From positions 95,466,624 through 95,530,623 of the forward strand of contig CM049308.1 in assembly GCA_026874595.1 (NCBI GenBank): a DNA stretch of 64,000 nucleotides, written 5' to 3'. The stretch comes from Sipunculus nudus. Taxonomy: Eukaryota > Annelida > Sipuncula > Golfingiida > Sipunculidae. A program made the position numbers and the translations under genes. Under the pieces are notes generated by a model. The model was not told the origin of the DNA, made no database searches, and was given only the letters and a program-made list of their open reading frames with translations. How positions within the stretch are numbered: position 1 is the first letter of the stretch; every line of letters starts with the position of its first letter. Of the stretch, positions 9,386-49,705 are shown in pieces.

Positions 9386-9457
9386 CGGCAGCCATATCAT
9401 AAACCTCCCAGCAAGGAAATACCCACTCACTGTCCCCCGATTAGATCTGCACATAGA
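9386..9457 (-). CDS. SLC5 (SGLT-like) sodium/solute cotransporter, exon 2
   Basis: This 72-nt exon encodes 24 residues. They begin [18 protein letters not shown] and end with a short hydrophobic FMIWLP. Only one of the three frames is open, and it is phase 0 at both ends. Family knowledge: SGLT/SLC5 proteins carry a closely matching segment (NRGTV-G-FLAGR-M-W-P) just after the first membrane helix, leading into the helix that forms part of the sodium site. The acceptor is TTTTATTTCCTTTCAG and the donor is CCG/GTAAGTA, both strong. It joins exon 1 (49622-49705) in frame. The substrate (glucose, myo-inositol or another polyol) cannot be inferred from this fragment. Met and Leu stand where many vertebrate SGLTs have bulky aromatic or Val residues in the final positions. 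Confidence 0.92.
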
Positions 9458-9484
9458 CTGAAAGGAAATAAAATGCTAGTCAGT
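9458..9484 (-). promoter_or_regulatory. Intron 1 splice acceptor and candidate branch site
   Basis: Read on the minus strand, a pyrimidine-rich tract ends in TTTCCTTTCAG immediately before exon 2. A CACTGAC element lies 22 nt upstream of the AG (branch A near 9480) and matches the metazoan branch-point consensus. That CACTGAC already belongs to the first unit of the 27-bp satellite, so the array starts within the splice signal itself. Confidence 0.7.
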
Positions 9485-12400
9485 GTGATGGTTTATTACA
9501 TAAATGTCAGAGTGATGGCTTGTTATAAGATGGTCAGAGGGACGGCTTATTACATGAAAGTGAGAGTGATGGCAGATGCCATTATAGTAAGAGTGTTGGC
9601 TTGTTACATGATAGTCAGGGTGATGGCTAATTACATGATAGTTAGAGTGATGGTTTATTACATGATAGTCAGTGTGATTGCTTATTACATGATAGTGAGA
9701 GTGATGGTTTATTACATGATAGTCAGTGTGATTGCTTATTACATGATAGTGAGAGTGATGGTTTATTACATGATAGTAAGAGTGACGGTTTATTACATGA
9801 TAGTCAGAGTGATGGCTTATTACATGATAGTCAGTGTGATTGCTTATTACATGATAGTTAGAGTGATGGTTTATTACATGATAGTCAGTGTGATGGCTTA
9901 TTACATGATAGTGAGAGTGATGGTTTATTACATGATAGTCAGTGTGATTGCTTATTACATGATAGTGAGAGTGATGGTTTATTACATGATAGTAAGAGTG
10001 ACGGTTTATTACATGATAGTCAGAGTGATGGCTTATTACATGATAGTCAGTGTGATTGCTTATTACATGATAGTTAGAGTGATGGTTTAGTACATGATAG
10101 TCAGTGTGATAGCTTATTACATGAAAGTCACTGTGATAGCTTATTACATGATAGTCAGTGTGATGGCTTATTACATGATAGTGAGGGTGATGGCTTATTA
10201 CATGATAGTGAGGGTGATGGCTTATTACATGATAGTGAGGGTGATGGTTTATTACATGATAGTGAGGGTGATGGTTTATTACATGATAGTCAGTGTGATG
10301 GCTTATTACATGATAGTGAGGGTGATGGTTTATTACATGATAGTGAGGGTGATGGTTTATTACATGATAGTTAGTGTGATAGCTTATTACATGAAAGTCA
10401 GTGTGATGGTTTATTACATGATAGTCAGTGTGATGGCTTATTACATGATAGTGAGGGTGATGGTTTATTACATGATAGTCAGTGTGATTGCTTATTACAT
10501 GATAATGAGGGTGATGGTTTATTACATGATAGTTAGTGTGATGGTTTATTACATGATAGTCAGTGTGATTGCTTATTACATGATAGTGAGGGTGATGGTT
10601 TATTACATGATAGTTAGTGTGATAGCTTATTACATGAAAGTCAGTGTGATGGTTTATTACATGATAGTCAGTGTGATGGCTTATTACATGATAGTGAGGG
10701 TGATGGTTTATTACATGATAGTCAGTGTGATGGCTTATTACATGATAGTGAGGGTGATGGTTTATTACATGATAGTGAGGGTGATGGTTTATTACATGAT
10801 AGTGAGGGTGATGGCTTATTACATGATAGTTAGAGTGATGGTTTATTACATGATAGTTAGTGTGATAGCTTATTACATGATAGTCAGTGTGATGGTTTAT
10901 TACATGATAGTCAGTGTGATGGCTTATTACATGATAGTGAGGGTGATGGCTTATTACATGATAGTGAGGGTGATGGTTTATTACATGATAGTGAGGGTGA
11001 TGGCTTATTACATGATAGTTAGAGTGATGGTTTATTACATGATAGTCAGTGTGATAGCTTATTACATGATAGTCAGTGTGATGGTTTATTACATGATAGT
11101 CAGTGTGATGGCTTATTACATGATAGTGAGGGTGATGGTTTATAACATGATAGTGAGGGTGATGGCTTATTACATGATAGTCAGAGTGATGGTTTATTAC
11201 ATGATAGTGAGGGTGATGGCTTATTACATGATAGTGAGGGTGATGGTTTATTACATGATAGTGAGGGTGATGGTTTATTACATGATAGTGAGGGTGATGG
11301 CTTATTACATGATAGTGAGGGTGATGGTTTATTACGTGGTAGTGAGGGTGATGGTTTATTACATGATAGTGAGGGTGATGGTTTATTACATGATAGCCAG
11401 TGTGATTGCTTATTACATGATAGTGAGGGTGATGGTTTATTACATGATAGTCAGTGTGATAGCTTATTACATGATAGTGAGGGTAATGGTTTATTACATG
11501 ATAGTCAGTGCGATTGCTTATTACATGATAGTGAGGGTGATGGTTTATTACATGATAGTGAGGGTGATGGTTTATTACATGATAGTGAGGGTGATGGTTT
11601 ATTACATGATAGTGAGGGTGATGGTTTATTACATGATAGTCAGTGTGATTGCTTATTACATGATAGTGAGGGTGATGGTTTATTACATGATAGTGAGGGT
11701 GATGGCTTATTACATGATAGTCAGTGTGACTGCTTATTACATGATAGTTAGAGTGATGGTTTATTACATGATAGTTAGAGTGATGGTTTATTACATGATA
11801 GTCAGTGTGATGGTTTATTACTTGATAGTGAGAGTGATGGCTTATTACACGATAGTTAGAGTGATGGTTTATTACATAAAAGTCAGTGTGATAGCTTATT
11901 ACATGATAGTCAGCGTGATTGCTTATTACATGATAGTTAGAGTGATGGTTTATTACATGATAGTCAGTGTGATTGTTTATTACATGATAGTTAGAGTGAT
12001 GGTTTATTACATGATAGTCAGTGTGATGGCTTATTACATGATAGTGAGGGTGATGGTTTATTACATGATAGTCAGTGTGATAGCTTATTACATGATACTG
12101 AGGGTGATGGTTTATTACATGATAGTTAGTGTGATGGCTTATTACATGAAAGTCAGTGTGATGGCTTATTACATGATAGTCAGTGTGATGGCTTATTACA
12201 TGATAGTGAGGGTGATGGCTTATTACATGATAGTGAGGGTGATGGTTTATTACATAATAGTTAGTGTGATAGCTTATTACATGAAAGTCAGTGTGATGGT
12301 TTATTACATGATAGTGAGGGTGATGGTTTATTACATGATAGTGAGGGTGATGGCTTATTATATGATAGTGAGGGTGATGGTTTATTACATGATAGTCAGT

Positions 12401-15400
12401 GTGATAGCTTATTACATGATAGTCAGTGTGATGGTTTATTACATGATAGTCAGTGTGATGGCTTAATACATGATAGTGAGGGTGATGGTTTATTACATGA
12501 TAGTGAGGGTGATGGCTTATTACATGATAGTGAGGGTGATGGCTTATTACATGATAGTGAGGGTGATGGTTTATTACATGATAGTGAGGGTGATGGCTTA
12601 TTACATGATAGTGAGGGTGATGGCTTATTACATGATAGTCAGGGTGACGGTTTATTACATGATAGAGAGGGTGATGGTTTATTACATGATAGTGAGGGTG
12701 ATGGTTTATTACATGATAGTCAGTGTGATTGCTTATTACATGATAGTTAGGGTGATGGTTTATTACATGATAGTCAGTGTGATAGCTTATTACATGATAG
12801 TGAGGGTGATGGTTTATTACATGATAGTCAGTGTGATTGCTTATTACATGATAGTGAGGGTGATGGTTTATTACATGATAGTGAGGGTGAAGGTTTATTA
12901 CATGATAGTGAGGGTGATGGTTTATTACATGATAGAGAGGGTGATGGTTAATTACATGATATTCAGTGTGATTGATTATTACATGATAGTGAGGGTGATG
13001 GTTTATTACATGATAGTCAGTGTGATAGCTTATTACATGATAGTTAGGGTGATGGTTTATTACATGATAGTCAGTGTGATTGCTTATTACATGATAGTGA
13101 GGGTGATGGTTTATTACATGATAGTAAGTGTGATAGCTTATTACATGATAGTCAGTGTGATGGTTTATTACATGATAGTCAGTGTGATGGTTTATTACAT
13201 GATAGTGAGGGTGATGGTTTATTACATGATAGTTAGGGTGATGGCTTATTACATGATAGTGAGGGTGATGGCTTATTACATGATAGTGAGGGTGATGGTT
13301 TATTACATGATAGTCAGTGTGATTGCTTATTACATGATAGTGAGGGTGATGGTTTATTACATGATAGTCAGTGTGATTGCTTATTACATGATAGTGAGGG
13401 TGATGGTTTATTACATGATAGTCAGTGTGACTGCCTATTACATGATAGTTAGAGTGATGGTTTATTACATGATAGTCAGTGTGATGGCTTATTACATGAT
13501 AGTGAGGGTGATGGTTTATTACATGATAGTCAGTGTGATTGCTTATTACATGATAGTGAGGGTGATGGTTTATTACATGATAGTCAGTGTGATAGCTTAT
13601 TACATGATAGTGAGGGTGATGGTTTATTACATGATAGTCAGTGTGATTGCTTATTACATGATAGTGAGGGTGATGGTTTATTACATGATAGTCAGTGTGA
13701 CTGCCCATACATGAAAGTTAGAGTGATGGTTTATTACATGATAGTCAGTGCGATTGCTTATTACATGATAGTGAGGGTGATGGTTTATTACATGATAGTC
13801 AGTGTGATTGCTTATTACATGACAGTGAGGGTGATGGTTTATTACATGATAGTCAGTGTGATTGCTTATTACATGATAGTGAGGGTGATGGTTTATTACA
13901 TGATAGTCAGTGTGATTGCTTATTACATGATAGTGAGGCTGATGGTTTATTACATGATAGTCAGTGTGATTGCTTATTACATGATAGTGAGGGTGATGGT
14001 TTATTACATGATAGTCAGTGTGATTGCTTATTACATGCTAGTGAGGGTGATGGTTTATTACATGATAGTCAGTGCGATTGCTTATTACATGATAGTGAGG
14101 GTAATGGTTTATTACATGACAGTCAGTGCGATTGCTTATTACATGATAGTGAGGGTAATAGTTTATTACATGATAGTGAGGGTGATGGTTTATTACATGA
14201 TAGTGAGGGTGATGGTTTATTACATGATAGTGAGGGTGATGGTTTATTACATGATAGTCAGTGTGATTGCTTATTACATGATAGTGAGGGTGATGGTTTA
14301 TTACATGATAGTGAGGGTGATGGTTTATTACATGATAGTCAGTGTGATTGCTTATTACATGATAGTGAGGGTGATGGTTTATTACATGATAGTCAGTGTG
14401 ATTGCTTATTACATGATAGTGAGGGTGATGGTTTATTACATGATAGTCAGTGTGATTGCTTATTACATGATAGTGAGGGTGATGGTTTATTACATGATAG
14501 TCAGTGTGATTGCTTATTACATGATAGTGAGGGTGATGGTTTATTACATGATAGTCAGTGTGATTGCTTATTACATGATAGTGAGGCTGATGGTTTATTA
14601 CATGATAGTCAGTGTGATTGCTTATTACATGATAGTGAGGGTTTATTACATGATAGTCAGTGTGATAGCTTATTACATGATAGTGAGGGTGATGGTTTAT
14701 TACATGATAGTCAGTGTGATTGCTTATTACATGATAGTGAGGCTGATGGTTTATTACATGATAGTCAGTGTGATTGCTTATTACATGATAGTGAGGGTGA
14801 TGGTTTATTACATGATAGTCAGTGTGATTGCTTATTACATGATAGTGAGGGTGATGGTTTATTACATGATAGTCAGTGTGATAGCTTATTACATGATAGT
14901 GAGGGTAATGGTTTATTACATGATAGTCAGTGCGATTGCTTATTACATGATAGTGAGGGTGATGGTTTATTACTTGATAGTGATGGTGATGGTTTATTAC
15001 ATGATAGTCAGTGTGATTGCTTATTACATGATAGTGAGGGTGATGGTTTATTACATGATAGTCAGTGTGATTGCTTATTACATGATAGTGAGGGTGATGG
15101 TTTATTACATGATAGTCAGTGTGACTGCCTATTACATGATAGTTAGAGTGATGGTTTATTACATGATAGTCAGTGTGATTGCTTATTACATGATAGTGAG
15201 GGTGATGGTTTATTACATGATAGTCAGTGTGATTGCTTATTACATGATAGTGATGGTTTATTACATGATAGTCAGTGTGATAGCTTATTACATGATAGTG
15301 AGGGTGATGGTTTATTACATGATAGTCAGTGTGATTGCTTATTACATGATAGTGAGGCTGATGGTTTATTACATGATAGTCAGTGTGATTGCTTATTACA

Positions 15401-16051
15401 TGATAGTGAGGCTGATGGTTTATTACATGATAGTCAGTGTGATTGCTTATTACATGATAGTGAGGGTGATGGTTTATTACATGATAGTCAGTGTGATAGC
15501 TTATTACATGATAGGGAGGGTAATGGTTTATTACATGATAGTCAGTGCGATTGCTTATTACATGATAGTGAGGGCGATGGTTTATTACATGATAGTGAGG
15601 GTGATGGTTTATTACATGATAGTCAGTGTGATTGCTTATTACATGATAGTGAGGGTGATGGTTTTTTACATGATAGTCAGTGTGATTGCTTATTACATGA
15701 TAGTGAGGGTGATGGTTTATTACATGATAGTCAGTGTGATTGCTTATTACATGATAGTGAGGCTGATGGTTTATTACATGATAGTCAGTGTGATTGCTTA
15801 TTACATGATAGTGAGGGTGATGGTTTATTACATGATAGTCAGTGTGATTGCTTATTACATGATAGTGAGGGTGATGGTTTATTACATGATAGTCAGTGTG
15901 ATAGCTTATTACATGATAGTGAGGGTAATGGTTTATTACATGATAGTCAGTGCGATTGCTTATTACATGATAGTGAGGGTGATGGTTTATTACATGATAG
16001 TGAGGGTGATGGTTTATTACATGATAGTGAGGGTGATGGTTTATTACATGA

Positions 16052-18750
16052 TAGTAAGTGTGATAGCTTATTACATGATAGTCAGTGTGATGGTTTATTA
16101 CATGATAGTCAGTGTGATGGCTTATTACATGATAGTGAGGGTGATGGTTTATTACATGATAGTGAGGGTGATGGCTTATTACATGATAGTGAGGGTGATG
16201 GCAATACATGATAGTGAGGGTGATGGTTTATTACATGATAGTCAGTGTGATTGCTTATTACATGATAGTGAGGGTGATGGTTTATTACATGATAGTCAGT
16301 GTGATTGCTTATTACATGATAGTGAGGGTGATGGTTTATTACATGATAGTCAGTGTGACTGCCTATTACATGATAGTTAGAGTGATGGTTTATTACATGA
16401 TAGTCAGTGTGATTGCTTATTACATGATAGTGAGGGTGATGGTTTATTACATGATAGTCAGTGTGATTGCTTATTACATGATAGTGAGGGTGATGGTTTA
16501 TTACATGATAGTCAGTGTGATAGCTTATTACATGATAGTGAGGGTAATGGTTTATTACATGATAGTCAGTGCGATTGCTTATTACATGATAGTGAGGGTG
16601 ATGGTTTATTACATGATAGTGAGGGTGATGGTTTATTACATGATAGTGAGGGTGATGGTTTATTACATGATAGTAAGTGTGATAGCTTATTACATGATAG
16701 TCAGTGTGATGGTTTATTACATGATAGTCAGTGTGATGGCTTATTACATGATAGTGAGGGTGATGGTTTATTACATGATAGTGAGGGTGATGGCTTATTA
16801 CATGATGGTGAGGGTGATGGCTTATTACATGATAGTGAGGGTGATGGTTAATTACATGATAGTCAGTGTGATTGCTTATTACATGATAGTGAGGGTGATG
16901 GTTTATTACATGATAGTCAGTGTGATTGCTTATTACATGATAGTGAGGGTGATGGTTTATTACATGATAGTCAGTGTGACTGCCTATTACATGATAGTTA
17001 GAGTGATGGTTTATTACATGATAGTCAGTGTGATGGCTTATTACATGATAGTGAGGGTGATGGTTTATTACATGATAGTCAGTGTGATTGCTTATTACAT
17101 GATAGTGAGGGTGATGGTTTATTACATGATAGTCAGTGTGATTGCTTATTACATGATAGTGAGGGTGATGGTTTATTACATGATAGTCAGTGTGATTGCT
17201 TATTACATGATAGTGAGGGTGATGGTTTATTACATGATAGTCAGTGTGATTGCTTATTACATGATAGTGAGGCTGATGGTTTATTACATGATAGTCAGTG
17301 TGATTGCTTATTACATGATAGTGAGGGTGATGGTTTATTACATGATAGTCAGTGTGATAGCTTATTACATGATAGTGAGGGTAATGGTTTATTATATGAT
17401 AGTCAGTGCGATTGCTTATTACATGATAGTGAGGGTGATGGTTTATTACATGATAGTGAGGGTGATGGTTTATTACATGATAGTGAGGGTGATGGTTTAT
17501 TACATGATAGTAAGTGTGATAGCTTATTACATGATAGTCAGTGTGATGGTTTATTACATGATAGTCAGTGTGATGGCTTATTACATGATAGTGAGGGTGA
17601 TGGTTTATTACATGATAGTGAGGGTGATGGCTTATTACATGATAGTGAGGGTGATGGCTTATTACATGATAGTGAGGGTGATGGTTTATTACATGATAGT
17701 CAGTGTGATTGCTTATTACATGATAGTGAGGGTGATGGTTTATTACATGATAGTCAGTGTGATTGCTTATTACATGATAGTGAGGGTGATGGTTTATTAC
17801 ATGATAGTCAGTGTGACTGCCTATTACATGATAGTTAGAGTGATGGTTTATTACATGATAGTCAGTGTGATTGCTTATTACATGATAGTGAGGGTGATGG
17901 TTTATTACATGATAGTCAGTGTGATTGCTTATTACATGATAGTGAGGGTGATGGTTTATTACATGATAGTCAGTGTGATAGCTTATTACATGATAGTGAG
18001 GGAAATGGTTTATTACATGATAGTCAGTGCGATTGCTTATTACATGATAGTGAGGGTGATGGTTTATTACATGATAGTGAGGGTGATGGTTTATTACATG
18101 ATAGTGAGGGTGATGGTTTATTACATGATAGTAAGTGTGATAGCTTATTACATGATAGTCAGTGTGATGGTTTATTACATGATAGTCAGTGTGATGGCTT
18201 ATTACATGATAGTGAGGGTGATGGTTTATTACATGATAGTGAGGGTGATGGCTTATTACATGATAGTGAGGGTGATGGCTTATTACATGATAGTGAGGGT
18301 GATGGTTTATTACATGATAGTCAGTGTGATTGCTTATTACATGATAGTGAGGGTGATGGTTTATTACATGATAGTCAGTGTGATTGCTTATTACATGATA
18401 GTGAGGGTGATGGTTTATTACATGATAGTCAGTGTGACTGCCTATTACATGATAGTTAGAGTAATGGTTTATTACATGATAGTCAGTGTGATGGCTTATT
18501 ACATGATAGTGAGGGTGATGGTTTATTACATGATAGTCAGTGTGATTGCTTATTACATGATAGTGAGGGTGATGGTTTATTACATGATAGTCAGTGTGAT
18601 TGCTTATTACATGATAGTGAGGGTGATGGTTTATTACATGATAGTCAGTGTGATTGCTTATTACATGATAGTGAGGGTGATGGTTTATTACATGATAGTC
18701 AGTGTGATTGCTTATTACATGATAGTGAGGCTGATGGTTTATTACATGAT
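16052..18750. repeat. Higher-order repeat of 621/837 bp inside the 27-bp array
   Basis: The rare unit variant TAGTAAGTG occurs at 16052, 16671, 17508 and 18129. The intervals are 619, 837 and 621 bp, that is about 23, 31 and 23 units, with the same order of neighbouring variants around each marker. The two lengths differ by eight 27-bp units. The 2-bp shortfall in the first interval matches a small deletion at about 16202 (GGCAATACATGATAG). Confidence 0.75.
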
Positions 18751-20656
18751 AGTCAGTGTGATTGCTTATTACATGATAGTGAGGGTGATGGTTTATTACA
18801 TGATAGTCAGTGTGATTGCTTATTACATGATAGTGAGGGTGATGGTTTATTACATGATAGTCAGTGTGATAGCTTATTACATGATAGTGAGGGTAATGGT
18901 TTATTACATGATAGTCAGTGCGATTGCTTATTACATGATAGTGAGGGTGATGGTTTATTACATGATAGTGAGGGTGATGGTTTATTACATGATAGTGAGG
19001 GTGATGGTTTATTACATGATAGTGAGGGTGATGGTTTATTACATGATAGTTAGTGTGATTGCTTATTACATGATAGTGAGGGTGATGGTTTATTACATGA
19101 TAGCGAGGGTGATGGCTTATTACATGATAGTCAGTGTGACTGCTTATTACATGATAGTTAGAGTGATGGTTTATTACATGATAGTGAGGGTGATGGCTTA
19201 TTACATGATAGTTAGAGCGATGGTTTATTACATGATAGTCAGTGTGATGGCTTATTACATGATAGCGAGGGTGATGGCTTATTACATGATAGTTAGAGTG
19301 ATGGTTTATTACTTGATAGTGAGGGTGATGGCTTATTACATGATAGTTAGAGTGATGGTTTATTACATAAAAGTCAGTGTGATAGCTTATTACATGATAG
19401 TCAGCGTGATTGCTTATTACATGATAGTTAGAGTGATGGTTTATTACATGATAGTCAGTGTGATTGTTTATTACATGATAGTCAGAGTGATGGTTTATTA
19501 CATGATAGTCAGTGTGATGGCTTATTACATGATAGTAAGGGTGATGGTTTGTTACATGATAGTCAGTGTGATAGCTTATTACATGATACTGAGGGTGATG
19601 GTTTATTACATGATAGTTAGTGTGATGGCTTATTGCATGAAAGTCAGTGTGATGGCTTATTACATGATAGTCAGTGTGATGGCTTATTACATGATAGTGA
19701 GGGTGATGGCTTATTACATGATAGTGAGGGTGATGGTTTATTACATAATAGTTAGTGTGATAGCTTATTACATGAAAGTCAGTGTGATGGTTTATTACAT
19801 GATAGTCAGTGTGATGGCTTATTACATGATAGTGAGGGTGATGGTTTATTACATGATAGTGAGGGTGATGGCTTATTATATGATAGTGAGGGTGATGGTT
19901 TATTACATGATAGTCAGTGTGATAGCTTATTACATGATAGTCAGTGTGATGGTTTATTACATGATAGTCAGTGTGATGGCTTATTACATGATAGTGAGGG
20001 TGATGGCTTATTACATGATAGTGAGGGTGATGGCTTATTACATGATAGTGAGGGTGATGGCTTATTACATGATAGTGAGGGTGATGGTTTATTACATGAT
20101 AGTGAGGGTGATGGCTTATTACATGATAGTGAGGGTGATGGCCTATTACATGATAGTGAGGGTGATGGTTTATTACATGATACAGAGGGTGATGGTTTAT
20201 TACATGATAGTGAGGGTGATGGTTTATTACATGATAGTCAGTGTGATTGCTTATTACATGATAGTTAGGGTGATGGTTTATTACATGATAGTCAGTGTGA
20301 TAGCTTATTACATGATTGTGAGGGTGATGGTTTATTACATGATAGTCAGTGTGATTGCTTATTACATGATAGTGAGGGTGATGGTTTATTACATGATAGT
20401 CAGTGTGATGGCTTATTACATGATAGTGAGGGTGATGGTTTATTACATGATAGTGAGGGTGATGGCTTATTACATGATAGTGAGGGTGATGGCTTATTAC
20501 ATGATAGTGAGGGTGATGGTTTATTACATGATAGTGAGGGTGATGGCTTATTACATGATAGTGAGGGTGATGGCTTATTACATGATAGTGAGGGTGATGG
20601 TTTATTACCTGATAGTCAGTGTGATTGCTTATTACATGATAGTTAGGGTGATGGTT

Positions 20657-30417: not shown

Positions 30418-30424
30418 TTTTACG

Positions 30425-33292: not shown

Positions 33293-33557
33293 GCATGGAT
33301 CCCAATATGGGCTGGTCAAGTTTAGGATCGCAATCTTGACTGGACAGATCTTAGATCTGTCCAGTCCAGATTGCGATCCTGAAGCAAGAAAGACAAGATC
33401 GCAATCTGGGCCAGACTAAACTGCGATCACAATATAGGCTGGACGGATCTAAGATCTGGCCAGCCTGGATTGCGATCGCAGTTTGGGCCGGCCTGAACTG
33501 CGATCGCAATTTGGGCTGGCCAGATCTAAGATCTGTCCAGATCGCAATCTAGGCCTT

Positions 33558-33562
<5 letters not shown>
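33293..33562 (-). repeat. Right terminal inverted repeat
   Basis: This is the reverse complement of 30149-30417. It ends in GGCCTTGACATAT and passes into a long TA tract (33561-33600). Confidence 0.85.
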
Positions 33563-33596
<34 letters not shown>

Positions 33597-33602
<6 letters not shown>

Positions 33603-33837
33603 CTCTGGAGAAAAACAACACTTAATTCACAACAGTCTGTTTCACGGGGTCTTTCACATGTCCCCCCCCCCCCCCCCCGACCCGAATCGCACAAAGCATA
33701 ATCTCGTAATCTCGTAAAGTCTCGGCTTTTCAAACCACGCCGTTAGCTTCATTCTAACCACATCCACCTGATGATCGGGTCGCACCCCGTGAAACAGACT
33801 GTTGTGAATTAAGTGTTGTTTTTCTCCAGAGTTATAC
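33597..33837. mobile_element. Foldback/MITE-like element with perfect 50-bp inverted arms
   Basis: Arms 33601-33650 and 33784-33833 are perfect reverse complements (50 of 50), with TATAACTCTGG at one outer end and CCAGAGTTATA at the other. The roughly 133-bp loop contains a C run (33663-33678). The element sits in the same TA tract that bounds the 3.4-kb TIR element, so the two insertions are adjacent. No ORF is plausible. After it comes a small hairpin, GGCCTAGTCTGTAGGCC (about 33845). Confidence 0.85.
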
Positions 33838-35639: not shown

Positions 35640-36263
35640 AAACAATTACAAGAGGAGGGGGGGGGGGGGGGTTGAATAGCTATATCCAGCTGAGTCCACC
35701 CAAGTGCTGGCTGGCTGCAGTATATGCCTCGCTTCAAGCATGAAAGGTCAATATGGGGACATATAGAGGGGCTTCAGTACAGCCTAGGTGTGACATGGTC
35801 TCATAAAAAATGTTATAAAAGCTACAGTTTTTGGTCAATTCCTTTCAAATTTCAGAATTCAGAAGCTGAAATCCTTACGTGTGCATGATATGAAAATTAA
35901 ACCAACAGTACTTACCGGGAAAAAATGTGCCATGCCCAAATTTGGGCAAAATTTTAGGTACTGATTTCATATTTATGCGAATAACTTATAAAATTTGAAA
36001 AATTCAGATCTAATTTTAGGTATACAATTGAATCTTGATTAAATGATGTTACATCCCTGAAAAAAAGTCTCTAGCTTCAGCCATTCTTATGTCAAGTGAG
36101 TTAATATATTTCCTGATTTTTTATGAGGTGCATTATGTTCCAGCCCATAACTTCAACATATTACGCAATACTGACCTAATTTTTGGTATGTACATAGAAA
36201 ATGTATGGAAGAATATGCATTTTCACTATGATCAAAATCAGATCAGTGGTTTTGATGTTAGGC
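35640..36263 (+). repeat. Dispersed repeat family R1, copy C, joined to the 24-bp satellite
   Basis: A G run (35657-35671) is followed by R1 blocks: TATGAAAATTAAACCAACAG, GTGCCATG, TTTTAGGTACTGATTTCAT, CAGATCTAATTTTAGGTATA and TTTTTGGTATGTACATAGAA. The copy ends at GTGGTTTTGATGTTAGGCAG. From there the sequence is 24-bp satellite. In copy B the same point (about 32566) continues as R1, so the junction truncates R1. Confidence 0.65.
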
Positions 36264-39200
36264 AGACAGTTCAGAACATCCGGTGACACACAGTTAAGAA
36301 CATCAGGTGACAGACAGTTCAGGTTATCTGGTGAGAGACAGTTCAGCACATTACACAACGGACTGTTCATTATATCAGGTGACACACAGTTCAGGACATC
36401 TGATGACAGACAGTTCAGAACATCAGGTGACAGACAAATCAGGACATCATGTGACACAGTTCAAAACATCAGGTGACTGACAGTTAAGAACATCAGATGA
36501 CAGACAGTTAAGGAAATCTGGTGACAAACAGTTAAGATCATCAGGTGACTGACAGAATATCTGGTGACAGACAGTTCAGGACATCAGGTGAAAGACATTT
36601 CAAAACATCGGATGACAGACAGTTTAGGATATCTGGTGACAGAAAGTTCAAAATTACACAACAGACAGTAATTATATCAGGCGACACACAGTTTAAGACC
36701 GCTGGTGACAGACAGTTCAGAACATCAGGTGACAGACAGTTGAGGACCTATGGTGACAGGCAGTTAAGAAAATCAGGTGAAAGACACTCCAAAACATCAG
36801 GTGACAGACACTCCAGAACATCAGGTCACAGACAGTTCTAAAAATTTTACATGACAGACAGTTCATTACAGAAGGTGCCAGACAGTTCGGGGCATCAGGT
36901 AACAGACGGTACAGAACATCAGGTTCCAGACTTTTAAGTAAAACAGATGTGACATATAGTGAAGAACGTCAGGTGACAGACAGTTCAGGACAAATGGTCA
37001 CAGACAGAAAAGAACATCTGGTGTCAGACAATTCAGGACATCTGGTGACACAGTTCATAACATCAGGTGACAAACAGTTCGGGATATTTGGTGACAGACA
37101 GATAAGAACATCAGGTAACAGAGAGTTCAGGACATCAGGTTATAGACAGTTCAGGACATCTGGTGACAGATGTTGCAGGATATTACACAACAGACAGTTC
37201 ATTATATAAGGTGACAGACAGTTCAGGACATCTGGTGACAGTTCAAAACATCTAGTTACCAACAGTTCAGGGCATCAGGTGACAAACAGTTCAGATTATT
37301 ACACCACAGACAATTCATTATATCAGGTGACACACGGTTCAGGACATCCGGTGACAGACAGTTCAAAACATCCAGTGACCGACAGATGGTGACCGACATC
37401 AGGTTATAGACAGATAGGTGACAAAACAGTTCAGGACATCTAGCTGGTGACAGACAGCACAGAACATCTGGTGATAGACAATACAGGACATCTTGTGACA
37501 GACAGTTCAGGACATCTTGTGACAGACAGTTCAGGACATCAGATGCCACAGTTCAGGTCATCTGGTGACAGAAACTTCAAAACATCTAGAGAGCGACAGT
37601 TGAGGGCATCAGGTGAAAGACATTTCAGATTATTACACAACAGACAGTTCATTATATCAGGTGACACAAAGTTCAGGACATCAGGTGACAGAGAACTCAG
37701 GACATCAGGTAACTGACAGTTCAGAACATCAGGTGACAGACAGTTCAGGATATCTGGTGACAAACAGTTAAGAACATCAGGTGACAGACAGTTCAGGATA
37801 TCTGGTGAGAGACAGTTCCGAACATTTCACAACAGACTGTTCATTATATCAGGTGACACAGTTCAGGACATCTGGTGACAGAGAGTTAAGAACATCAGGT
37901 GACAGACAATTCAGGACATCAGGTGACAGACAGTTTAGAACATCAGGTGATAGACAATTCAGGACATCAGGTGACACAGTTCAGAACATCAAGACTTTTC
38001 AGGATATCAGGTGACAGACAGTTCAGGATATCTGGTGACAGACAGTTCAGGACATCAGGTGAAAGACATTTCAGAACAAATGGTGACAGACAGGTAAGAA
38101 TGTTAGGTGACAGACAGTTCAGGACATCCAGTTAGACAGTTCAGAACAACATGTGACAGAAAGTTCAGGACATCTGCTGACAGACGGTGCAGGATATTAC
38201 ACAACAGACAGTTCATTATATAAGGTGACACACAGTTCAGGATGTCTGGGAAAAGATAGTTCAGGCCAACTTGTGACAAACAGTTCAGAACATCAGGTAA
38301 CAGACAGTACAGGACATCAGGTTACAGACTTTTAAGTACATCTGATGTGACAGATAGTAAAGAACGTCAGGTGACAGACAGTTCAGGACCTATGGTGACA
38401 GACAGGAAAGAACATCAGGTGACAGACAGTTCAGAAAATCTGGTGACACAGTTCATAACATCAGGTGACAAACAGTTCAGGATATCTGGTGACAGACAGT
38501 TGAGAACATCAGGTGACAGAAAGTTCAGAACATCAGGTAACAGACAGTTAAGGACATCAGGTTAAAGACAGTTCTGGACATCTGGTGACACATAGTTCAG
38601 ACCAAATGATGACAGACAGTTCAGAACATCAGGTAACAGACAGTTAAGGACATCAGGTTAAAGACAGTTCTGGACATCTGGTGACAGACAGCACAGAACA
38701 TCTGGTGATAGACAATACAGGACATCTTGTGACAGACAGTTCAGGACATCTTGTGACAGACAGTTCAGGACATCAGATGCCACAGTTCAGGTCATCTGGT
38801 GACAGAAACTTCAAAACATCTAGAGAGCGACAGTTGAAGCCATCAGGTGAAAGACATTTCAGATTATTACACAACAGACAGTTCATTATATCAGGTGACA
38901 CAAAGTTCAGGACATCAGGTGACAGACAGTTCAGGACATCAGGTGACAGACAGTTCAGAACATCAGGTGACACAGTTCATAACATCAGGTGGCAAACAGT
39001 TCAGGATATCTGGTGACAGACAGTTGAGAACATCAGGTGACAGAAAGTTCAGAACATCAGGTAACAGACAGTTAAGGACATCAGGTTAAAGACAGTTCTG
39101 GACATCTGGTGACAGACAGCACAGAACATCTGGTGATAGACAATACAGGACATCTTGTGACAGACAGTTCAGGACATCTTGTGACAGACAGTTCAGGACA

Positions 39201-42200
39201 TCAGATGCCACAGTTCAGGTCATCTGGTGACAGAAACTTCAAAACATCTAGAGAGCGACAGTTGAGGGCATCAGGTGAAAGACATTTCAGATTATTACAC
39301 AACAGACAGTTCATTATATCAGGTGACCCAAAGTTCAGGACATCAGGTGACAGAGAACTCAGGACATCAGGTAACTGACAGTTCAGAACATCAGGTGACA
39401 GACAGTTCAGGATATCTGGTGACAAACATTTAAGAACATCAGGTGACAGACAGTTCAGGATATCTGGTGAGAGACAGTTCCGAACATTTCACAACAGACT
39501 GTTCATTATATCAGGTGACACAGTTCAGGACATCTGGTGACAGAGAGTTAAGAACATCAGGTGACAGACAATTCAGGACATCAGGTGACAGACAGTTTAG
39601 AACATCAGGTGATAGACAATTCAGGACATCAGGTGACACAGTTCAGAACATCAAGACTTTTCAGGATATCAGGTGACAGACAGTTCAGGATATCTGGTGA
39701 CAGACAGTTCAGGACATCAGGTGAAAGACATTTCAGAACAAATGGTGACAGACAGGTAAGAATGTTAGGTGACAGACAGTTCAGGACATCCAGTTAGACA
39801 GTTCAGAACAACATGTGACAGAAAGTTCAGGACATCTGCTGACAGACGGTGCAGGATATTACACAACAGACAGTTCATTATATAAGGTGACACACAGTTC
39901 AGGATGTCTGGGAAAAGATAGTTCAGGCCAACTTGTGACAAACAGTTCAGAACATCAGGTAACAGACAGTACAGGACATCAGGTTACAGACTTTTAAGTA
40001 CATCTGATGTGACAGATAGTAAAGAACGTCAGGTGACAGACAGTTCAGGACCTATGGTGACAGACAGGAAAGAACATCAGGTGACAGACAGTTCAGAAAA
40101 TCTGGTGACACAGTTCATAACATCAGGTGACAAACAGTTCAGGATATCTGGTGACAGACAGTTGAGAACATCAGGTGACAGAAAGTTCAGAACATCAGGT
40201 AACAGACAGTTAAGGACATCAGGTTAAAGACAGTTCTGGACATCTGGTGACACATAGTTCAGACCAAATGATGACAGACAGTTCAGAACATCAGGTAACA
40301 GACAGTTAAGGACATCAGGTTAAAGACAGTTCTGGACATCTGGTGACAGACAGCACAGAACATCTGGTGATAGACAATACAGGACATCTTGTGACAGACA
40401 GTTCAGGACATCTTGTGACAGACAGTTCAGGACATCAGATGCCACAGTTCAGGTCATCTGGTGACAGAAACTTCAAAACATCTAGAGAGCGACAGTTGAA
40501 GCCATCAGGTGAAAGACATTTCAGATTATTACACAACAGACAGTTCATTATATCAGGTGACACAAAGTTCAGGACATCAGGTGACAGACAGTTCAGGACA
40601 TCAGGTGACAGACAGTTCAGAACATCAGGTGACACAGTTCATAACATCAGGTGGCAAACAGTTCAGGATATCTGGTGACAGACAGTTGAGAACATCAGGT
40701 GACAGAAAGTTCAGAACATCAGGTAACAGACAGTTAAGGACATCAGGTTAAAGACAGTTCTGGACATCTGGTGACAGACAGCACAGAACATCTGGTGATA
40801 GACAATACAGGACATCTTGTGACAGACAGTTCAGGACATCTTGTGACAGACAGTTCAGGACATCAGATGCCACAGTTCAGGTCATCTGGTGACAGAAACT
40901 TCAAAACATCTAGAGAGCGACAGTTGAGGGCATCAGGTGAAAGACATTTCAGATTATTACACAACAGACAGTTCATTATATCAGGTGACCCAAAGTTCAG
41001 GACATCAGGTGACAGAGAACTCAGGACATCAGGTAACTGACAGTTCAGAACATCAGGTGACAGACAGTTCAGGATATCTGGTGACAAACAGTTAAGAACA
41101 TCAGGTGACAGACAGTTCAGGATATCTGGTGAGAGACAGTTCCGAACATTTCACAACAGACTGTTCATTATATCAGGTGACACAGTTCAGGACATCTGGT
41201 GACAGAGAGTTAAGAACATCAGGTGACAGACAATTCAGGACATCAGGTGACAGACAGTTTAGAACATCAGGTGATAGACAATTCAGGACATCAGGTGACA
41301 CAGTTCAGAACATCAAGACTTTTCAGGATATCAGGTGACAGACAGTTCAGGATATCTGGTGACAGACAGTTCAGGACATCAGGTGAAAGACATTTCAGAA
41401 CAAATGGTGACAGACAGGTAAGAATGTTAGGTGACAGACAGTTCAGGACATCCAGTTAGACAGTTCAGAACAACATGTGACAGAAAGTTCAGGACATCTG
41501 CTGACAGACGGTGCAGGATATTACACAACAGACAGTTCATTATATAAGGTGACACACAGTTCAGGATGTCTGGGAAAAGATAGTTCAGGCCAACTTGTGA
41601 CAAACAGTTCAGAACATCAGGTAACAGACAGTACAGGACATCAGGTTACAGACTTTTAAGTACATCTGATGTGACAGATAGTAAAGAACGTCAGGTGACA
41701 GACAGTTCAGGACCTATGGTGACAGACAGGAAAGAACATCAGGTGACAGACAGTTCAGAAAATCTGGTGACACAGTTCATAACATCAGGTGACAAACAGT
41801 TCAGGATATCTGGTGACAGACAGTTGAGAACATCAGGTGACAGAAAGTTCAGAACATCAGGTAACAGACAGTTAAGGACATCAGGTTAAAGACAGTTCTG
41901 GACATCTGGTGACACATAGTTCAGACCAAATGATGACAGACAGTTCAGAACATCAGGTAACAGACAGTTAAGGACATCAGGTTAAAGACAGTTCTGGACA
42001 TCTGGTGACAGACAGCACAGAACATCTGGTGATAGACAATACAGGACATCTTGTGACAGACAGTTCAGGACATCTTGTGACAGACAGTTCAGGACATCAG
42101 ATGCCACAGTTCAGGTCATCTGGTGACAGAAACTTCAAAACATCTAGAGAGCGACAGTTGAGGGCATCAGGTGAAAGACATTTCAGATTATTACACAACA

Positions 42201-45200
42201 GACAGTTCATTATATCAGGTGACCCAAAGTTCAGGACATCAGGTGACAGAGAACTCAGGACATCAGGTAACTGACAGTTCAGAACATCAGGTGACAGACA
42301 GTTCAGGATATCTGGTGACAAACAGTTAAGAACATCAGGTGACAGACAGTTCAGGATATCTGGTGAGAGACAGTTCCGAACATTTCACAACAGACTGTTC
42401 ATTATATCAGGTGACACAGTTCAGGACATCTGGTGACAGAGAGTTAAGAACATCAGGTGACAGACAATTCAGGACATCAGGTGACAGACAGTTTAGAACA
42501 TCAGGTGATAGACAATTCAGGACATCAGGTGACACAGTTCAGAACATCAAGACTTTTCAGGATATCAGGTGACAGACAGTTAAGGATATCTGGTGACAGA
42601 CAGTTCAGGACATCAGGTGAAAGACATTTCAGAACAAATGGTGACAGACAGGTAAGAATGTTAGGTGACAGACAGTTCAGGACATCCAGTTAGACAGTTC
42701 AGAACAACATGTGACAGAAAGTTCAGGACATCTGCTGACAGACGGTGCAGGATATTACACAACAGACAGTTCATTATATAAGGTGACACACAGTTCAGGA
42801 TGTCTGGGAAAAGATAGTTCAGGCCAACTTGTGACAAACAGTTCAGAACATCAGGTAACAGACAGTACAGGACATCAGGTTACAGACTTTTAAGTACATC
42901 TGATGTGACAGATAGTAAAGAACGTCAGGTGACAGACAGTTCAGGACCTATGGTGACAGACAGGAAAGAACATCAGGTGACAGACAGTTCAGAAAATCTG
43001 GTGACACAGTTCATAACATCAGGTGACAAACAGTTCAGGATATCTGGTGACAGACAGTTGAGAACATCAGGTGACAGAAAGTTCAGAACATCAGGTAACA
43101 GACAGTTAAGGACATCAGGTTAAAGACAGTTCTGGACATCTGGTGACACATAGTTCAGACCAAATGATGACAGACAGTTCAGAACATCAGGTAACAGACA
43201 GTTAAGGACATCAGGTTAAAGACAGTTCTGGACATCTGGTGACAGACAGCACAGAACATCTGGTGATAGACAATACAGGACATCTTGTGACAGACAGTTC
43301 AGGACATCTTGTGACAGACAGTTCAGGACATCAGATGCCACAGTTCAGGTCATCTGGTGACAGAAACTTCAAAACATCTAGAGAGCGACAGTTGAGGGCA
43401 TCAGGTGAAAGACATTTCAGATTATTACACAACAGACAGTTCATTATATCAGGTGACCCAAAGTTCAGGACATCAGGTGACAGAGAACTCAGGACATCAG
43501 GTAACTGACAGTTCAGAACATCAGGTGACAGACAGTTCAGGATATCTGGTGACAAACAGTTAAGAACATCAGGTGACAGACAGTTCAGGATATCTGGTGA
43601 GAGACAGTTCCGAACATTTCACAACAGACTGTTCATTATATCAGGTGACACAGTTCAGGACATCTGGTGACAGAGAGTTAAGAACATCAGGTGACAGACA
43701 ATTCAGGACATCAGGTGACAGACAGTTTAGAACATCAGGTGATAGACAATTCAGGACATCAGGTGACACAGTTCAGAACATCAAGACTTTTCAGGATATC
43801 AGGTGACAGACAGTTCAGGATATCTGGTGACAGACAGTTCAGGACATCAGGTGAAAGACATTTCAGAACAAATGGTGACAGACAGGTAAGAATGTTAGGT
43901 GACAGACAGTTCAGGACATCCAGTTAGACAGTTCAGAACAACATGTGACAGAAAGTTCAGGACATCTGCTGACAGACGGTGCAGGATATTACACAACAGA
44001 CAGTTCATTATATAAGGTGACACACAGTTCAGGATGTCTGGGAAAAGATAGTTCAGGCCAACTTGTGACAAACAGTTCAGAACATCAGGTAACAGACAGT
44101 ACAGGACATCAGGTTACAGACTTTTAAGTACATCTGATGTGACAGATAGTAAAGAACGTCAGGTGACAGACAGTTCAGGACCTATGGTGACAGACAGGAA
44201 AGAATATCAGGTGACAGACAGTTCAGAAAATCTGGTGACACAGTTCATAACATCAGGTGACAAACAGTTCAGGATATCTGGTGACAGACAGTTGAGAACA
44301 TCAGGTGACAGAAAGTTCAGAACATCAGGTAACAGACAGTTAAGGACATCAGGTTAAAGACAGTTCTGGACATCTGGTGACACATAGTTCAGACCAAATG
44401 ATGACAGACAGTTCAGAACATCAGGTAACAGACAGTTAAGGACATCAGGTTAAAGACAGTTCTGGACATCTGGTGACAGACAGCACAGAACATCTGGTGA
44501 TAGACAATACAGGACATCTTGTGACAGACAGTTCAGGACATCTTGTGACAGACAGTTCAGGACATCAGATGCCACAGTTCAGGTCATCTGGTGACAGAAA
44601 CTTCAAAACATCTAGAGAGCGACAGTTGAGGGCATCAGGTGAAAGACATTTCAGATTATTACACAACAGACAGTTCATTATATCAGGTGACACAAAGTTC
44701 AGGACATCAGGTGACAGACAGTTCAGGACATCAGGTGACAGAGAACTCAGGACATCAGGTAACTGACAGTTCAGAATATCAGGTAACAGACAGTTCAGGA
44801 TATCTGGTGACAAACAGTTAAGAACATCAGGTGACAGACAGTTCAGGATATCTGGTGAGAGACAGTTCCGAACATTTCACAACAGACTGTTCATTATATC
44901 AGGTGACACAGTTCAGGACATCTGGTGACAGAGAGTTAAGAACATCAGGTGACAGACAATTCAGGACATCAGGTGACAGACAGTTTAGAACATCAGGTGA
45001 TAGACAATTCAGGACATCAGGTGACACAGTTCAGAACATCAAGACTTTTCAGGATATCAGGTGACAGACAGTTCAGGATATCTGGTGACAGACAGTTCAG
45101 GACATCAGGTGAAAGACATTTCAGAACAAATGGTGACAGACAGGTAAGAATGTTAGGTGACAGACAGTTCAGGACATCCAGTTAGACAGTTCAGAACAAC

Positions 45201-48200
45201 ATGTGACAGAAAGTTCAGGACATCTGGTGTCAGACGGTGCAGGATATTTCACAACAGACAGTTCATTATATAAGGTGACACACAGTTCAGGACGTCTTGG
45301 AACAGACAGTACAGGACATCAGGTTACAGACTTTTAAGTACATCTGATGTGACAGATAGTAAAGAACGTCAGGTGACAGACAGTTCAGGACCTATGGTGA
45401 CAGACAGGAAAGAACATCAGGTGACAGACAGTTCAGAACATCTGGTAACACAGTTCATAACATCAGGTGACAAACAGTTCAGGATATCTGGTGACAGACA
45501 GTTGAGAACATCAGGTGACAGAAAGTTCAGAACATCAGGTAACAGACAGTTAAGGACATCAGGTTAAAGACAGTTCTGGACATCTGGTGACAGACAGCAC
45601 AGAACATCTGGTGATAGACAATACAGGACATCTTGTGACAGACAGTTCAGGACATCTTGTGACAGACAGTTTAGAACATCAGGTGATAGACAATTCAGGA
45701 CATCAGGTGACACAGTTCAGAACATCAAGACTTTTCAGGATATCAGGTGACAGACAGTTCAGGATATCTGGTGACAGACAGTTCAGGACATCAGGTGAAA
45801 GACATTTCAGAACAAATGGTGACAGACAGGTTAGAATGTTAGGTGACAGACAGTTCAGGACATCCAGTTAGACAGTTCAGAACAACATGTGACAGAAAGT
45901 TCAGGACATCTGGTGACAGACGGTGCAGGATATTTCACAACAGACAGTTCATTATATAAGGTGACACACAGTTCAGGACGTCTGGGAACAGATAGTTCAG
46001 GCCAACTATTGACAAACAGTTCAGAACATCAGGTAACAGACAGTACAGGACATCAGGTTACAGATTTTTAAGTACATCTGATGTGACAGATAGTAAAGAA
46101 CGTCAGGTGACAGACAGTTCAGGACCTATGGTGACAGACAGGAAAGAACATCAGGTGACAGACAGTTCAGAACATCTGGTGACACAGTTCATAACATCAG
46201 GTGGCAAACAGTTCAGGATATCTGGTGACAGACAGTTGAGAACATCAGGTGACAGAAAGTTCAGAACATCAGGTAACAGACAGTTAAGGACATCAGGTTA
46301 AAGACAGTTCTGGACATCTGGTGACAGACAGCACAGAACATCTGGTGATAGACAATACAGGACATCTTGTGACAGACAGTTCAGGACATCTTGTGACAGA
46401 CAGTTCAGGACATCAGATGCCACAGTTCAGGTCATCTGGTGACAGAAACTTCAAAACATCTAGAGAGCGACAGTTGAGAGCATCAGGTGAAAGACATTTC
46501 AGATTATTACACAACAGACAGTTCATTATATCAGGTGACACAAAGTTCAGGACATCAGGTGACAGAGAACTCAGGACATCAGGTAACTGACAGTTCAGAA
46601 CATCAGGTGACAGACAGTTCAGGATATCTGGTGACAAACAGTTAAGAACATCAGGTGACAGACAGTTCAGGATATCTGGTGAGAGACAGTTCCGAAAATT
46701 TCACAACAGACTGTTCATTATATCAGGTGACACAGTTCAGGACATCTGGTGACAGAGAGTTAAGAACATCAGGTGACAGACAGTTAAGGACATCAGGTTA
46801 AAGACAGTTCTGGACATCTGGTGACAGATAGTTCAGACCAAATGGTGACAGACAGTTCAGAACATCAGGTAACAGACAATTAAGGACATCAGGTGACAGA
46901 CAGTTCAGGATATCTGGTGACAGACAGTTCAGGACATCAGTTGAAAGACATTTCAGAACAAATGGTGACAGACAGGTAAGAATGTTAGGTGACAGACAGT
47001 TCAGGACATCCAGTTAGACAGTTCAGAACAACATGTGACAGAAAGTTCAGGACATCTGGTGTCAGACGGTGCAGGATATTTCACAACAGACAGTTCATTA
47101 TATAAGGTGACACACAGTTCAGGACGTCTTGGAACAGACAGTACAGGACATCAGGTTACAGACTTTTAAGTACATCTGATGTGACAGATAGTAAAGAACG
47201 TCAGGTGACAGACAGTTCAGGACCTATGGTGACAGACAGGAAAGAACATCAGGTGACAGACAGTTCAGAACATCTGGTAACACAGTTCATAACATCAGGT
47301 GACAAACAGTTCAGGATATCTGGTGACAGACAGTTGAGAACATCAGGTGACAGAAAGTTCAGAACATCAGGTAACAGACAGTTAAGGACATCAGGTTAAA
47401 GACAGTTCTGGACATCTGGTGACAGATAGTTCAGACCAAATGGTGACAGACAGTTCAGAACATCAGGTAACAGACAATTAAGGACATCAGGTTAAAGATA
47501 GTTCAGGACATCTATTGACAGATAGTTCAGACCAAATGGTGACAGACAGTTGAGAACATCAGGTGACAGACAGTTCAGAACATCAAGTAACAGACAGTTA
47601 AGGACACCAGGTGACAGACAGTTCAGGACATCTGATGACAGATGGTGCAGGATATTTCACAACAGACAGTTCATTATATAAGGTGACACACAGTTAAGGA
47701 CATCAGGTGACCAACAGTTCAGGGTATCAGGTGACAGTTCTGAACATTACACAACAGACAGTGTATTATTTAAGGTGACACACAGTTAAGGACATCAGGT
47801 GACACAGTTCAGGGTATCAGGTGACAGTTCAGAACATTACACAACAGACAGTGTATTATATAAGGTGACACACAGTTAAGGTCTTAAGGACATCAGGTGA
47901 CACAGTTCAGAACTTCAGGTGACAGACAATTCAGGACATCAGGTTATACAGTTCAGGACCTCAGGTCACAGACAGTTCAGGATTTTACATGACAGACAGT
48001 TCATTACAGAAGGTGCCAGACAGTTCTGGGCATCAGGTAACAGACAGTACAGAACATCAGGTTCCAGACTTTTAAGTAAAACGGATGTGACATATAGTGA
48101 AGAACGTCAGGTGACAGACAGTTCAGGACAAATGGTCACAGACAGAAAAGAACATCAGGTGTCAGACAATTCAGGACATCTGGTGACACAGTTCATAACA

Positions 48201-48476
48201 TCAGGTGACAAACAGTTCGGGATATTTGGTGACAGACAGAAAATAACATCAGGTAACAGAGAGTTCAGGACATCAGGTTATAGACAGATAGGTGACAAAA
48301 CAGTTCAGGACATCTAGCTGGTGACAGATAGTTCAAGACATCTGATGACAGACAGTCAAGAACATTAGGTGACAGACAGCACAGGGGACCTAGGCACAGG
48401 CAGTTTAGGACCTATGATCACAGACAGTTCAGGACATCAGGTGACAGACAGTTCAGGACATCAGGTGACAGTTGCA
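36264..48476. repeat. 24-bp satellite array, about 500 copies
   Basis: This 12.2-kb array is built on a 24-bp unit with the blocks GACAGACAGTTCAG and GACATCAGGT or ACATCTGGT. Many units carry small indels. As 24 is divisible by three, many short ORFs arise with an eight-residue period (TSGDRQFR on plus, CLSPDVLN on minus). They are period artefacts, repeat at the higher-order interval, and lie in intron 1 of the SLC5-like gene. Each unit holds TGACAG and CAGAC, and many hold the E-box CAGGTG. Whether any is bound by a factor is unknown. Confidence 0.97.
37781..46654. repeat. Higher-order repeat core of the 24-bp array (1,662 / 1,234 bp)
   Basis: An identical block order restarts at 37781, 39443, 41105, 42339, 43573, 44831 and 46655. 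The intervals are 1,662, 1,662, 1,234, 1,234, 1,258 and 1,824 bp. The 1,662-bp form equals the 1,234-bp form plus an internal 428-bp duplication (38681 and 39109 start the same block). Successive copies differ by very few bases, so the core amplified or homogenised recently. The extra 24 bp in the 1,258-bp interval is one added unit (44701-44724 region). Confidence 0.9.
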
Positions 48477-49621
48477 ACAGCTTCTGCATTTGGTTTCAGC
48501 TTATATCTGAGAATATTATGGCTATACCTTTTTTTACCCAACTTTCAAATTTCTCAGTTCAAATACCATCAGTATGTTTGCTGATTTGCTATGGATGATG
48601 GCATTTTCTTCAAGTTACACAAGTCATTTCCATCATGTTAATGGCAATGCCTAGGTAATCGTGTTGGAAACAATGCCAAAAGTAAAGCCTGACGTGTCAT
48701 TAGGAAACGTGTTGGTGTTATCATAATATGCAAATGAGATTTAAAGTGCTCCTAGAATCCAACCATTTGGTAAAGTATTGGAAATTCCCGTTTCTAGAAG
48801 TGTCTGGGTTTGTTTACCAAGTCCCCTGTCACTGCTCCATATGATAAACTATTGGAAAATTCCACTGCGACCAAGCTCCCCATATGCGAACAACCTGTTG
48901 CATATTTTAATATCATTTGCATTGAAAATAATTCGATGTTTTGTTCCTTCAGAGCCCTGGATAACCCTATCAACTGTTAATTAAACTTGATGCAAATCAT
49001 ATATCAAAAATAAACTGCGCGACATACAGTGACCTGGTGACAGTGGAGCGTACGAGGTTTCCTTGGACGTAATCGGGATTACGTTACGGCCGAGTCTTCT
49101 GCGAGTGTTGTTGACACGGCGCGGCTGGATCCACGTGGTCAGCTCCAAACCAAAATAACAAGAGCCTGCTTGCTCATCTGAATACGCCTTGTCGGATTAC
49201 CGCGATGTTATGATTTACATAACTATCATAAGACACTTAGTTGACAAGGCAAAAAGGATAGACCTAATTGCAAGTCCTTTAGGACTTTAAATTTATGTGA
49301 CAAGTAACATTCGTATTTTGTGAGATGACTGAACCTGTCTGTTAATGTTATTTACGATCAGCTGCCGGTAAGGTACAAAATACTGGCCAAAATAAATATA
49401 TATAGCGAGTATTTTTTTCTTTAAATATGGCTCAAATCTGATAAAAGTACCAAAGGTCTTCATACACTTGACATACAGCGAACATGTCAAGTGCAAGTCT
49501 GTGAAGTATTCATGACATAAAGTGATAAACAGTCCTAGAGCATTACGCTCCACGATGCACAACACACACACGAGATGTGAACCGTGCAGACACCCGGCAC
49601 TAAATAAAAGTAAATACTCAC
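48477..49621. other. Low-copy 5' part of intron 1
   Basis: This stretch is not obviously repetitive. It contains an octamer-like ATATGCAAATGAG near 48726, a locally GC- and CpG-richer patch (about 49015-49210), the palindrome ACGTAATCGGGATTACGT (49067-49084) and CCACGTGG (49131-49138). The frame open on minus at 49293-49679 overlaps exon 1 and is simply exon 1 in the wrong frame running into the intron. I see no further exon. Confidence 0.5.
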
Positions 49622-49705
49622 ATATATCCCAGCTCCCAAAACAGCTGCAAAATACAATGCAACCGCCACGAAATCCCAAGTCTCAAGTTTAGATCCCTCT
49701 GCCAT
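49622..49705 (-). CDS. SLC5 (SGLT-like) sodium/solute cotransporter, exon 1 coding part
   Basis: The 84 nt encode 28 residues. A short acidic/basic N-terminus (MAEGSKLETW) is followed by the hydrophobic segment DFVAVALYFAAVLGAGIY, which fits the first membrane helix of an SLC5 transporter. The donor TAT/GTGAGT is a good consensus and phase 0. Joining to exon 2 gives ...[13 protein letters not shown]..., the arrangement expected for the family: helix, short loop, then NRGTV-GYFLAGR. The ATG (CAT at 49703-49705 on plus) is the first in this frame after the presumed leader, and its context GACATGG has G at +4. The gene runs right to left, with the rest beyond the left edge. Family members are plasma-membrane Na+-coupled symporters; the substrate is unknown here. 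Confidence 0.9.

Follow-up and report, generated by a model that had tools for sequence, protein, structure and literature searches.

How can a gene whose first two exons are separated by more than 30 kb of tandem repeats still be a working gene, and why do the repeats lie where they do? The question is raised by a stretch of 64,000 nucleotides from Sipunculus nudus (assembly GCA_026874595.1, contig CM049308.1, numbered C3 here; C3:95466624-95530623), referred to below as the window, in which two short exons of SLC5/SGLT type flank a 40-kb intron that consists mostly of repeats. In the model presented here these exons open a predicted SLC5 gene of SGLT type, intact, with 14 exons spread over 179 kb. 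We consider it quite probable that the window holds the 5′ part of an intact gene lying near a contig end, that the minisatellites of this gene were seeded at exon edges, and that intron 1 is spliced as an ordinary large intron.

Exon 1 (49622-49705 of the window, minus strand, 84 nt, phase 0) carries the start codon and the first helix and ends in TAT, followed by the donor gtgagt; exon 2 (9386-9457, minus strand, 72 nt or 24 codons, phase 0) is preceded by tttcag, begins with TCT and ends in CCG, followed by gtaagt. They enclose the GT-AG intron 1 (9458-49621, minus strand, 40,164 bp). The positions, lengths, phase and splice sites agree with those given in a preliminary description of the window, which had also assigned both exons to one SLC5/SGLT-type gene and predicted a third exon to the left of the window; the assignment holds and the exon is present. 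The model was built from the window together with 150 kb fetched to its left and 20 kb to its right (234 kb). Exons 3, 5, 10 and 11 were located by matches to the SSF profile, most of the remaining exons with an SGLT1 probe, and exon 13 from a list of open reading frames, exon ends being set with the frame and SGLT similarity in mind. The resulting gene spans C3:95516328 down to 95337214 on the minus strand, with exons 3-14, twelve in all, to the left of the window. In the final model all 13 introns are GT-AG with consistent phases, and the joined coding frame of 2,148 nt translates into 715 amino acids without an internal stop.

The 52-residue join of exons 1 and 2, for which the preliminary description had proposed a protein search, matches an SGLT2 chain (7vsi_A, 5.6e-13) and an SGLT1 chain (7sl8_A, 6e-9); a Pfam search of this short piece by itself gave no SSF match. 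In a six-frame search of the 234 kb with SGLT first-helix references, exon 1 was the top match (score 46; runner-up 30), and among the 12 matches listed it alone has a consensus donor next to it. The 715-residue protein aligns with the SGLT1 chain over residues 11-551 (E 1.6e-223, 747 bits) and scores 685 bits against the SGLT2 chain and no more than 50.7 bits against the multivitamin, monocarboxylate and iodide SLC5 chains, and its SSF domain (PF00474, 451.5 bits) covers the profile from 1 to 406 of 406. The complete SSF profile, with similarity to SGLT1 and SGLT2 rather than to other SLC5 members, places the predicted protein within SLC5/SGLT, with sodium-coupled sugar transport as a putative function. 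All seven residues taken to form the SGLT sugar site (N78, H83, E102, Y290, W291, K321 and Q457) are identical in the alignment with the SGLT1 chain; near them, SNIGSGH reads SNIGSEH in this protein (Gly to Glu).

The repeats of this gene are concentrated at the edges of its exons. Counting arrays with a period of 10-110 bp, at least four copies and a length of at least 150 bp, 10 of 15 minisatellites overlap an exon or lie within 110 bp of one, against 0.52 expected and a maximum of four in 20,000 random placements. By comparison, a single one of 19 long-period repeats (111-500 bp) lies near an exon, that one being an array already among the 15, called with a different period. Intron 1 had been singled out for its repeat load; minisatellite arrays also occur in introns 2, 3, 5, 6, 9, 11, 12 and 13, and it is the position at exon edges that forms the informative pattern. 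Four arrays, at the acceptors of exons 7, 10 and 12 and at the donor of exon 12, copy the splice site together with adjoining exon bases, and thus run as tandem repeats across the exon-intron boundary in the manner of the lancelet "mirages" discussed below. In these comparisons, which used the printed units nearest each exon, the exon 7 units have common changes that the true exon 7 lacks, which suggests that this array evolved together with the authentic copy excluded. The donor array of exon 12 also contains a partial copy of exon 12 (C3:95353694-95353780). With ten edge-associated arrays, the gene is an extreme case of junction-spanning minisatellites.

Within intron 1, a 54-bp (2 × 27) minisatellite of 352 copies (9473-28459; no strand is assigned to the arrays) comes to within 16 bp of the exon 2 acceptor, and a 24-bp minisatellite of about 514 diverged copies (36263-48471) lies 1,151 bp from exon 1. 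Together they make up 31,196 bp, or 77.7% of the intron. The earlier figure of about 31 of 40.2 kb therefore stands (31,196 of 40,164 bp), but the term "satellite" does not. With up to three mismatches allowed, a 46-base pattern from the 54-bp array has 314 matches in the assembly (1.43 Gb, 153 contigs) and a 37-base pattern from the 24-bp array has 61, and all 314 and all 61 fall in the window. Since both patterns are confined to it, the arrays are local minisatellites; a satellite family would recur at several loci, and copies within three mismatches do not. Neighbouring units agree by about 91% in the 54-bp array and about 66% in the 24-bp array, the latter showing higher-order structure in that some pattern matches repeat at 1,662 and 1,234 bp. 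A third array, absent from the preliminary description, consists of 20.6 copies of a 98-bp unit (7363-9384) and extends from +2 of the exon 2 donor, leaving exon 2 as a 72-nt island with a 19-kb array on one side and a 2-kb array on the other. Its donor-proximal motif has 15 exact matches, 13 of them ATAAGTATACC and two, including the authentic donor, GTAAGTATACC. Neither intron 1 array spans a boundary with its splice site copied. The last 54-bp unit holds a branch-point-like CTGAC, with its A 23 nt before exon 2, and 696 YTNAY motifs occur on the sense strand of this array, a number that has no control count beside it. An Rfam search found no match within the window. On this model, excision of intron 1 from the transcript of a working copy would have to take 31 kb of tandem repeats with it. 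The repeat is ordinary as a local minisatellite and unusual as part of a gene with most of its minisatellites at exon edges; the earlier interpretation is in this sense partly supported.

The arrays that copy splice junctions present the splicing machinery with decoys, defined here as sites with up to 8 mismatches in 32 or 10 in 27 to the true site. Use of any of the 51 acceptor decoys (4 at exon 7, 22 at exon 10, 25 at exon 12) would give a frameshift or a stop, as would use of 70 of the 80 donor decoys of exon 12, the other 10 keeping the frame. Donor-like sites in the two intron 1 arrays number 3 on the sense strand and 538 on the antisense strand, the sense counts of the individual arrays being 0 and 3 where shuffling gives means of 17.9 and 5.1. 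Selection against decoy sites was set aside as the cause. Among 13 intronic arrays, seven are richer in donor-like sites on the antisense strand, two on the sense strand and four show no difference. The array at the exon 12 donor has 73 sense sites. Because the arrays are thus mixed and each is a single unit repeated, the strand bias is suggestive at most. Acceptor-like sites in the 24-bp array number 34 sense and 0 antisense. Upstream of the gene and to the right of the window, a 32-bp minisatellite of 5.8 kb (C3:95531856-95537612) has 26 sense and 0 antisense donor-like sites, and its plus strand has open stretches of up to 801 codons.

A similar arrangement is found in an SGLT paralogue, P2 (C7:686-719 kb), which lies 0.7 Mb from its contig end; the exon ends of P2 were set by eye and some are off by a few bases. 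A 59-bp, 73-copy array repeats the end and donor of its exon 8, arrays lie over the acceptors of exons 7 and 10, and another lies 86 bp after exon 2; over the span from exon 2 to exon 12, four of five minisatellites are within 110 bp of an exon (0.62 expected, p 0.0013). Boundary-spanning repeats with the splice site copied occur at P2 exons 7, 8 and 10, and also at an SLC6-type exon (C16:60091949-60092336, 3.4 Mb from the contig end), where 117-bp (39-codon) units before the exon repeat the acceptor and about 75 bp of the exon. The frame is open through these units, and alternative acceptors there could add 39-residue inserts. A common origin of the arrays in the two SGLT-type genes was considered and rejected, as the unit lengths are 69 and 43 bp at exon 10 and 91 and 44 bp at exon 7, with differing sequences; arrays that share exon edges but not units are treated as independent. 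In P2, a small relic array of units resembling the exon 10 acceptor lies in intron 9 (C7:710020-710177), 5.9 kb upstream of exon 10.

Two interior paralogues lack such arrays where they were read: P1 (C7:62.8 Mb) over 19 kb, with exons 1-2 outside, and P3 (C7:72.65 Mb) over 17 kb, with exons 1-4 outside. P1 has a single 125-bp TATTA run adjoining exon 12, and P3 has two runs of 31-34 bp units with fewer than four copies, plus AAT and CT runs. Exon 7 of P1 is present in three tandem versions (C7:62790162, 62791161 and 62792581), each matching without stops; they look like alternative, possibly mutually exclusive, exons. Elsewhere, on C9, C1, C7, C2 and C11 (L001-L008 and others), many SLC5 paralogues match as a single open frame of about 510-680 codons, in addition to the multi-exon genes of SGLT type.

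A sequence of events that would produce the pattern begins in a region prone to repeats with short tandem duplications that arise at splice junctions or extend across them, and that would then expand by slippage or unequal exchange. Selection would hold the junction copy still joined to the rest of the exon, while the remaining copies would drift as intron. Exon definition would select the authentic junction because no other copy is paired with the far end of the exon, and use of a decoy would mostly lead to a frameshift or a stop. The 54-bp array probably derived from the branch-point region of exon 2, and its last unit may for that reason still supply the branch point; the pre-mRNA, including 31 kb of arrays, would then be spliced like that of an ordinary large intron. 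The gene lies about 2.4-2.6 Mb from the end of C3 (97.9 Mb), contig ends being taken here, as an assumption, for chromosome ends. A wider proposal, which we put forward tentatively and regard as possible rather than probable, is that in this animal the splice junctions of genes near chromosome ends are birth sites of minisatellites. Duplications that grow to many kilobases would be seeded there, perhaps through the nascent transcript once processed or through a nick or break in the junction itself. The exon would persist as a small island held by selection, and the splicing machinery would have to ignore decoys numbering up to dozens.

Several observations weigh against seeding at exon edges and its link to chromosome ends. 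The array thresholds were chosen after the map had first been viewed. The 24-bp array is separated from exon 1 by 1,151 bp and five of the 15 arrays have no exon within 110 bp, so that edge seeding is not the whole explanation; the 54-bp array, moreover, contains neither an acceptor AG nor exon sequence. In P2, two further minisatellites lie outside the tested span, one about 200 bp ahead of exon 2 and one about 310 bp past exon 12, and with these counted the ratio becomes four of seven. The choice of P2 was guided by its position near a contig end and that of the SLC6-type exon by its clustered matches, and they therefore serve as examples and not as a survey; the contig-end link itself compares three loci with such arrays, two of SLC5 and one of SLC6 type, with a pair of partly read interior SLC5 loci. 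Among human variable-number tandem repeats (VNTRs), those with a GC content above 60% and units longer than 15 bp show a 21-fold enrichment in the 5 Mb next to chromosome ends (PMC7608644), but this enrichment concerns GC-rich repeats, unlike the arrays of this gene, which are not GC-rich. The distant arrays, together with long-period repeats of the same gene that show no preference for exon edges, would also fit passive accumulation, in which introns of a repeat-rich region gather arrays anywhere and contact with exon edges is coincidental. We regard this as unlikely, as 10 of 15 arrays are at edges where 0.52 are expected, with the excess in P2 pointing the same way, and units copy splice sites and exon ends.

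A further point against the preferred reading is that the gene model and its splicing are predicted from genomic sequence, and this leaves room for a decaying gene, or for an exon 1 that belongs to another transcript, with no splicing across the 40 kb. The introns are large and hold numerous decoy sites, frame and SGLT similarity guided the choice of exon ends, and an array copy taken as exon 7 breaks the frame. The complete frame of 715 codons with 13 consensus introns, an exon 1 with no rival match in 234 kb, and array copies of exon ends that carry frame-breaking differences where the authentic exons carry none make either version very improbable. It is also improbable, though tandem arrays are hard to assemble, that the assembly has inflated or misplaced the array lengths: the recurring 1,662- and 1,234-bp blocks of the 24-bp array and the several very similar bacterial contigs in the assembly would be compatible with such an error, but neighbouring 24-bp units are only about 66% alike and similar arrays occur at several unrelated loci. 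Seeding at exon edges within an intact, normally spliced gene is accordingly the reading we retain.

Other features of the window and assembly were recorded alongside. In intron 2, antisense to the gene, a retroelement reverse-transcriptase open reading frame (RVT_1, 3.7e-28) occupies 4444-5853 of the window on the plus strand. On C14, 22 of the 62 matches in the assembly to a degenerate FMRF-G pattern fall in one 950-bp run, in which each of the 21 spacings is a multiple of three; the backward pattern, used as control, had 43 scattered matches (19 + 24). Five of the 22 were read as letters, and in all five FMRFG has K or R next to it. Pfam's FMRFamide model produced no match, nor did any appear in the controls. 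Multi-copy FMRFamide precursors occur in molluscs, with 28 copies in Aplysia (PMC4208409). Taken by itself, this one neuropeptide gene points to a lophotrochozoan, most likely a mollusc, and speaks against the lancelet that the mirage precedent would suggest; lophotrochozoans other than molluscs would fit as well. Among contigs C60-C89, several bacterial contigs score nearly equally for the same genes, and C89 has copies of the SSF gene, and likewise of the COX1 gene, about 2.04 Mb apart; this contig may represent more than one turn of a circular cobiont genome. Of 582 relatives of the bacterial contigs, the 80 kept are 52-58% identical and belong to mixed phyla, and so gave no guide to the host. 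A COX1 search gave nine bacterial-type copies with near-equal scores, one copy on C123, bacterial by eye, and one 51-residue fragment, and inspection by eye of the first 9 kb of C153 revealed no mitochondrial gene.

In titles and abstract openings from a full-text literature search, a term for junction-spanning minisatellites occurred for lancelets only, which leaves absence elsewhere in print unproven. Two papers may bear on the subject, one concerned with gene structure and tandem repeats in duplicated human genes (PMC2812944), the other with minisatellites and alternative splicing in C. elegans (PMC4039745). An intronic 27-bp minisatellite is described in an abalone gene (PMC6905558).

The closest likeness is to the lancelet mirages, reported in Adh3, TnC, the globins BflGb6 and BflGb9, and PGBD5, where minisatellite-like repeats extend across exon-intron boundaries on either side, splice signals are copied, and splicing is reported to be undisturbed where examined (PMC3087553, PMC3902484). 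The arrays in BflGb6 and PGBD5 have 2-7 units, whereas single arrays here have 352-514 copies and measure 12-19 kb, and one gene holds ten edge-associated arrays, four of them junction-spanning with exon sequence. Long intronic tandem repeats also part the coding exons of Drosophila kl-3 and kl-5, whose introns hold far more satellite (PMC6508621), which qualifies the view that over 30 kb of repeats is unusual for the first intron of a transporter gene. The VNTR in intron 18 of human ABCA7, of up to about 427 units and 10,678 bp (PMC5954066) and called subtelomeric (PMC7608644), is a similar kind of structure. The Drosophila introns hold megabases of simple satellite on the Y chromosome and are transcribed, and ABCA7 has one array in one gene with a measured effect on splicing, longer arrays giving more exon 19 skipping; the arrays here, known from their sequence, are in contrast kilobase-scale local minisatellites at exon edges.

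Junction-spanning minisatellites have so far been, in the literature cited, a lancelet curiosity and a human disease-risk VNTR. The present locus amounts to a natural experiment: ten arrays are associated with exon edges of one gene, a single exon has about 80 decoy donors next to it, and interior paralogues are without such arrays where read. It could reveal the way in which minisatellites arise at splice sites and near-perfect decoys are rejected in splicing, and whether position at a chromosome end is the driving factor.

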